Source: Deltaproteobacteria bacterium (GTDB lineage: Bacteria > JAUYMQ01). From it: a stretch of 7,880 nt of DNA. The stretch lies in contig JAUYMQ010000399.1 of NCBI GenBank assembly GCA_030698575.1, forward strand, positions 1-7,880, read 5' to 3'. The translations under genes were made by a program, and so were the position numbers. How positions within the stretch are numbered: position 1 is the stretch's first letter; each line of letters opens with the position of its first letter. Under the pieces are notes generated by a model. The model saw nothing but the letters and a program-made list of their open reading frames with translations. It searched no databases and was not told where the DNA came from. This document shows positions 1,408 through 1,690 of this stretch, one piece after another.

Positions 1408-1453
1408 AAAATTACGTGGGGCCCGAGATTGCTCTCGAGCCCCACGTAATTTT
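1408..1453. terminator. Large bidirectional terminator hairpin after the Lys/Ala gene
   Basis: AAAATTACGTGGGGC (1408-1422) is the exact reverse complement of 1439-1453. After one C/A mismatch, the stem continues with CGAGA/TCTCG (1424-1428 and 1433-1437) closing on the tetraloop TTGC. The structure thus has 20 pairs out of 21 positions. Each outer end is A-rich on one strand and T-rich on the other, so a transcript from either side ends in ...TAATTTT. It begins 32 bases past the stop of the leftward Lys/Ala gene and most likely terminates it. Confidence 0.85.
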
Positions 1454-1485: not shown

Positions 1486-1599
1486 TTACTTCTTCTTCTT
1501 CGCGGTCTTCTTCTTGGCTACCTTCTTCGCAGCCTTTCGCTTCGCTGGCTTCTTCTTGGCCGTCTTCTTCGCGGCCTTCTTCTTTCGCTTTGCTGCCAT
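1486..1599 (-). CDS. 37-residue Lys/Ala-rich histone H1-like microprotein
   Basis: ATG (1599) to TAA (1486-1488) encodes 37 residues: 20 Lys, 2 Arg, 10 Ala and only Met, two Thr, Pro and Val besides, with no acidic or aromatic residue. Residues 9-22 and 23-36 form a tandem 14-residue repeat of the type AAKK(T/V)AKKK(P/T)AK(R/K)K. Such KAAKK-type sequences resemble eukaryotic H1 tails and bacterial H1-like or AlgP-type C-terminal tails, which bind DNA or RNA by charge. Here the tail is the whole protein. The start is secured by a GGAGGT Shine-Dalgarno sequence 6 bases before the ATG. The gene has its own promoter and terminator and is therefore monocistronic. The likely role, by inference, is nucleic-acid compaction or charge neutralisation; a ribosome-associated or polyphosphate-binding role is also possible. 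All 20 lysines use AAG. It falls below usual gene-calling length cut-offs. Confidence 0.85.
   Translation of the reverse strand: MAAKRKKKAAKKTAKKKPAKRKAAKKVAKKKTAKKKK
1492..1575 (-). repeat. Two tandem 42-bp coding repeats inside the Lys/Ala gene
   Basis: Bases 1575-1534 (codons 9-22) and 1533-1492 (codons 23-36) encode near-identical 14-residue units. They differ at T/V, P/T and R/K positions, plus synonymous Ala codons. This suggests growth by duplication, with room for repeat-number variation between strains. Confidence 0.7.
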
Positions 1600-1635: not shown

Positions 1636-1690
1636 TTTATATTTTTTGTTTTCGGCCTGTCAAGATATTTTTTTAGCTATTTTTGATCTT
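1636..1690 (-). promoter_or_regulatory. Strong sigma70 promoter with UP-like A-tracts for the Lys/Ala gene
   Basis: On the - strand a perfect -35 TTGACA (1658-1663) and a -10 TATAAA (1636-1641) are separated by 16 bp. Directly upstream of the -35, bases 1664-1690 contain runs of seven and five A on the transcribed-direction strand, like an UP element contacted by the RNA polymerase alpha subunit. Transcription should start near 1629 and give a leader of about 30 bases. The whole element is AT-rich in a GC-rich genome, which suggests high expression. Confidence 0.8.

Follow-up and report, generated by a model that had tools for sequence, protein, structure and literature searches.

Positions 1486 to 1599 of a deltaproteobacterial contig hold, on the minus strand, a reading frame of only 37 codons that is made up mostly of lysine and alanine, and the question is whether this frame is a gene in its own right and, if it is, what so small and so basic a product would do. 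The window analysed is the whole 7,880-nucleotide stretch of DNA around it, and the genome assembly to which it belongs comprises 4.13 Mb in 653 contigs and is 91.6% complete.

The microgene and its expression signals

The frame runs from an ATG at 1599-1597 to a TAA at 1488-1486 and is translated as MAAKRKKKAAKKTAKKKPAKRKAAKKVAKKKTAKKKK. Its composition is K20 A10 R2 T2 M1 P1 V1, that is, 22 basic residues of 37 with no acidic and no aromatic residue, and the computed net charge is +21.5 (about +21) with a pI of 12. A peptide of this composition would be intrinsically disordered. Residues 9-22 (AAKKTAKKKPAKRK, 1534-1575, minus strand) and 23-36 (AAKKVAKKKTAKKK, 1492-1533, minus strand) form two tandem 14-residue units that are identical at 11 of 14 positions, and the repeats at the DNA level inside the gene have units of 12 and 15 nt. 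The first-pass annotation had placed the frame at exactly these positions without stating the strand, and its count of basic residues and its tandem repeat agree with those given here. It had also described the frame as a histone H1-like tail that is complete by itself, and this description holds: an in-frame TAA lies 8 codons upstream of the ATG, and a longer protein ending in this frame is thereby excluded. By composition the product is of the H1-like, tail-only kind (lysine- and alanine-rich, built of repeats, lacking acidic and aromatic residues and lacking a globular domain), and it is encoded by a complete gene with a Shine-Dalgarno start.

Frames of this composition are not expected by chance. 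In 600 Markov windows of order 3 and 5, which yielded approximately 34,000 ATG frames of at least 30 residues, the maximum lysine fraction was 0.21 and the maximum lysine plus arginine fraction 0.45, compared with 0.54 and 0.59 in the 37-mer. The motif KKxAKK is found four times in the gene and only once elsewhere in the assembly, in the frame encoding ribosomal protein uL5 (L034:1-330), where it lies in a lysine-rich N-terminal extension (MPEAKARKPKQSPKGGKPKEGKKSAKK...). All 20 lysine codons of the gene are AAG, against 48 of 66 in the seven other genes of the window (P = 0.002 under the codon usage of those seven genes).

Signals for transcription and translation surround the frame, as the first-pass annotation had proposed. 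On the minus strand a -35-like hexamer TTGACA (1658-1663) is separated by 16 bp from a -10-like hexamer TATAAA (1636-1641), followed by CTCCTATAGGAGGTAACTACATG, which contains the Shine-Dalgarno sequence AGGAGG (1612-1607) 7 nt before the ATG. The promoter was absent from the list of a consensus scan because that scan demands a T at the last -10 position. A stretch rich in A-tracts above the -35 hexamer (1664-1688, minus strand) is UP-element-like in sequence and could function as such. A 12-base perfect palindrome, CTCCTATAGGAG, at 1607-1618 overlaps the Shine-Dalgarno sequence and could form a small hairpin that hides it; the folding of this candidate was no better than that of shuffled sequences, and sequestration was rejected. 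Beginning 32 nt past the stop codon, a hairpin with 21-bp arms and a 4-nt loop (1408-1453, minus strand) is preceded by an A-run and followed by a U-run, folds at -40.1 kcal/mol (z about -7.7), and resembles an intrinsic terminator that could act in both directions. On the same strand, an aminotransferase gene and engB lie upstream; downstream comes a merR-type gene, which begins 364 nt past the hairpin and has a promoter-like site of its own. Given its promoter, Shine-Dalgarno sequence and hairpin, and the separate promoter-like site of merR, the signals indicate that the 37-codon gene is transcribed as a unit by itself. Elsewhere in the window, positions 3-425 encode the C-terminal part of coenzyme F420-0:L-glutamate ligase (CofE), and the organism therefore probably makes F420.

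A strong promoter and a terminator with no known protein domain between them would also suit a small non-coding RNA, AAG-rich by chance and with its frame untranslated, and Rfam gave a match to the BjrC68 sRNA over the hairpin. All of the Rfam matches were, however, sub-threshold (26.5 bits against a cutoff of 39 for BjrC68) and covered the hairpin alone, whereas a well-spaced Shine-Dalgarno sequence, an ATG and a stop codon frame a sequence that the simulations never produced, and analogous frames in other genomes vary by whole codons and recode lysine according to GC content. The untranslated RNA is therefore highly improbable, and the frame is very probably a real gene.

A short frame rich in a single codon and followed by a terminator-like hairpin has the outline of an attenuator, and the merR-type gene follows it in the same orientation. 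Under amino-acid attenuation the 20 lysine codons of a leader peptide would sense the supply of lysyl-tRNA and so control termination at the hairpin and the expression of the downstream gene. Pairing between the leader and the 5' arm of the hairpin, however, reached only -10.7 kcal/mol, a value attained by 192 of 200 shuffled sequences, against -36 for the hairpin itself; no antiterminator pairing better than shuffles was thus found, and attenuation was rejected on that point. The merR-type gene is 364 nt away with its own promoter-like site, what follows the analogous frames of other genomes is uvrA, mutL or a bare terminator, none of these being a lysine gene, and G405 carries a tandem of three such frames. 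A regulatory leader is on these grounds very improbable.

Similar microgenes in other genomes

A protein search with the 37-mer returned the 37-mer alone, as expected for a sequence of such low complexity. A search of genome contigs with EngB found no near relative, and among the engB matches retrieved from other genomes, all of them distant, no lysine-rich frame of the 37-mer type was found nearby. DNA patterns worked better than protein searches for low-complexity lysine frames. Recurrence was assessed with a pattern combining a Shine-Dalgarno sequence, ATGGC and AKK in 386 bacterial genomes, and the places matched were then read. At least 17 other genomes of the 386 carry a free-standing lysine/alanine frame of 17-68 residues preceded by a Shine-Dalgarno sequence, a lower bound drawn from the matches listed and from patterns restricted to particular start sequences. 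A few of these frames came from a class search and from a second, end-anchored pattern; the latter was not strict enough, and most of its matches arose by chance.

The frames found consist nearly entirely of lysine, together with alanine, valine, threonine and proline; examples are MAKKKAKKVVKKAAKKTAKKATKKVTKKKKK (L085), MATKKKKAAAKKPAKKKAAKKAPAKKRKAAKKKK (L088) and MAVKKKAKKKVAKKKTAKKKVAKKKVAKKKTAKKKKKKK (L094). A terminator-like hairpin lies directly past the stop codon in L071, in the same gene in L068 and L085, and in L082, L088 and L120, and TTGACA and TATAAT hexamers precede the microgene of L103. A consensus promoter, a terminator directly after the stop codon, or both were read at L103, L071, L082, L088, L120, L109 and L111. 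Across 31 lysine microgene frames the lysine content is nearly constant, from 0.53 at AT-rich loci to 0.59 at GC-rich loci, and the share of AAG follows local GC content (rho 0.86, with a p-value that is only nominal because the frames are partly related). Constant lysine content with an AAG/AAA ratio that follows GC is the pattern expected if selection acts on the protein and not on the RNA. Two loci (L097 and L100) encode relatives of 92-95 residues in which a lysine repeat is placed before a small Cys-rich end (RCAAKTKAGKRCKNMAKAPSKFCKAHQ) that is probably metal-binding.

In several lineages the microgene occupies a fixed position. In the order that includes genome G194 (f174), the pattern matches 17 of 21 genomes and misses G326, in which the gene is nevertheless present. 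Where the flanks were read, the gene lies between the gene of an NtrC-type sigma-54 regulator and uvrA and encodes 11, 17, 21 or 22 residues, its length changing by whole codons, with an invariant GGAGGTGAT and a conserved stop codon. Just past the stop codon an invariant 15-mer, GACCTGGCACGTCCT, is followed by a hairpin; this block and hairpin (L122-L139 and L113, for example L123:1500-1680) have no Rfam match, and the block is possibly a separate RNA element. In the class of G310 (f25) all three genera have the gene, with 24, 31 and 29 residues, between a multihaem cytochrome gene and mutL and downstream of a conserved TGGTATAAT. An inverted repeat, CACTTGGGGCCAGT ... ACTGGCCCCAAGTG, encloses the microgene in the same class and is kept in the three genera (L180, L181 and L185), so that the 5' and 3' ends of the transcript could pair.

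Tandem arrangements are also found. The family of G129 and G267 has two successive frames (24+21 and 27+13 residues) ahead of a terminator. In that of G213, one genome (L094) has a single 39-mer where another has three frames in tandem, with 22, 17 and 17 residues; the two genomes share the helix-turn-helix gene upstream and the Lys-tailed protein downstream. At L175:1510-1760 each of the three 17-22-residue copies has its own GGAGG, and the next protein has 100 residues and a lysine-rich tail.

The microgenes of different lineages share their composition, and at this level of complexity common ancestry cannot be shown; judged from the sequences, convergence is likely, and convergent microgenes may have different targets.

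Relation to known H1-like proteins and probable function

No family of Pfam or NCBIfam matches the 37-mer, including the profile of the chlamydial Hc1/Hc2 family, in a profile test that is weakened by low-complexity filtering. The folded 90-residue domain of HU and IHF (PF00216) has no match in it, and the arrangement of AlgP, an N-terminal helical domain followed by a KPAA tail, is absent from a frame that totals 37 residues and has no N-terminal domain. In open-licence papers on short lysine-rich or H1-like bacterial microproteins no free-standing protein as small as this was described, an absence that is weak evidence.

Larger proteins of this kind are known. The first-pass annotation had held that H1-like tails in bacteria usually end a larger protein, but tail-only forms have been described in eubacteria and kinetoplastids (PMC3486875) and as Hc2 and BpH1 (PMC2848022). 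The trypanosome H1 is a C-terminal-type domain alone and yet supports higher-order chromatin (PMC3486875), and single-domain H1-like proteins of eubacteria are cited in the same paper. Like the 37-mer, these proteins consist of a single H1-C-terminal-type domain of lysine, alanine and proline and lack a globular domain (PMC3486875); the trypanosome protein has at least 73 residues, since an antibody peptide covers residues 59-73 (PMC3486875), against 37 here, and homology cannot be shown for sequence of such low complexity. Chlamydial Hc2 (HctB) and BpH1 of Bordetella are likewise free-standing and H1-like, consist of short lysine-rich units with alanine, threonine, valine and proline, and share the trait of changing in length by whole units (PMC2848022). 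Hc2 binds DNA; it differs in having 165-237 residues and a distinct C-terminal part (PMC2848022), whereas the 37-mer has no Pfam match. The C-terminal domains of AlgP and PhaF are lysine-, alanine- and proline-rich disordered tails that bind DNA, as do peptides derived from the KPAA tail of AlgP (PMC9239181), but these tails sit on larger proteins with an N-terminal domain and are built of KPAA units, whereas KKxAKK units stand alone here. Mycobacterial MDP1 is an example of an HU-type protein whose lysine-rich, disordered cationic tail contributes to DNA organisation (PMC5974015); that tail is carried by a folded HU-type protein, whereas the 37-mer has no folded domain and the HU genes of its genome are separate from it. 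Tail-only H1-like proteins as a kind are thus already known, bacteria included (Hc2, BpH1, trypanosome H1), and all of them are much larger. What is new is the size (37 residues here and down to 11 elsewhere), the single-gene setting and, in unrelated lineages, the conservation of these microgenes at fixed positions.

The product of the gene would be a free-standing, intrinsically disordered polycation of the H1-tail type. Its strong sigma-70-type promoter and strong Shine-Dalgarno sequence would give many copies of the peptide from a transcript predicted to end at the hairpin at 1408-1453. Unfolded and with approximately one positive charge for every 1.7 residues, the peptide would bind polyanions by charge neutralisation, most likely chromosomal DNA, RNA or both. 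It would compact or shield nucleic acid in the manner of the lysine-rich C-terminal domain of histone H1, and it would work beside the HU/IHF proteins of the genome, of which five PF00216 matches were found, so that a role in the nucleoid would be an addition to theirs. The highly expressed, nucleic-acid-binding character proposed in the first-pass annotation is in keeping with this reading of signals and charge. By analogy with the proteins above, the balance of evidence leans modestly towards a strongly expressed polycation that would condense DNA or RNA as the H1 C-terminal domain does.

As possible targets, DNA, RNA, polyphosphate and membranes are not distinguished by the composition. The peptide may be a counter-ion associated with polyphosphate or with RNA and ribosomes, condensing polyphosphate or coating rRNA or mRNA instead of having a role in nucleoid organisation. 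A gene for polyphosphate kinase 1 (PPK1) is present in the genome; AlgP, whose tail is similar in composition, is located at polyphosphate granules and needs the tail for granule spacing (PMC9239181); and Hc2 surpasses Hc1 in affinity for RNA and is the more efficient repressor of translation (PMC2848022). PPK1 is widespread, however, and its presence discriminates little, and the syntenic genes of other lineages, uvrA and mutL, belong to DNA repair rather than to polyphosphate or the ribosome, although neighbourhood is weak evidence. Condensation of DNA or RNA is ranked first, and polyphosphate or the ribosome second, because the closest tested analogues bind DNA; the counter-ion role is unlikely but deserves serious consideration. 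A secreted or membrane-active cationic peptide, antimicrobial or toxin-like, would be small and strongly cationic as the 37-mer is, but the 37-mer has no signal or leader sequence and no hydrophobic face (besides K, R and T it contains only A, V, P and M), no transporter, processing or immunity gene lies nearby, and the conservation seen in other lineages is of the housekeeping type, which together leave this explanation extremely improbable.

Among bacteria more widely, the fixed and sometimes tandem loci tentatively suggest, at somewhat short of an even chance, that several families carry autonomous micro-H1 genes of 11-68 residues, in which the H1 C-terminal domain is a complete protein of minimal size acting as a protein-encoded, polyamine-like counter-ion of nucleic acid. 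Such microgenes look like an overlooked class of polyanion-binding microproteins. Annotation readily overlooks small genes of low complexity, and protein catalogues may therefore lack a common component that binds chromatin or RNA. A gene of 11-40 residues is a minimal natural H1 C-terminal domain that can be synthesised for direct tests of DNA compaction and phase separation, and the microgenes are relevant to the proposal that H1-type tails arose in bacteria.
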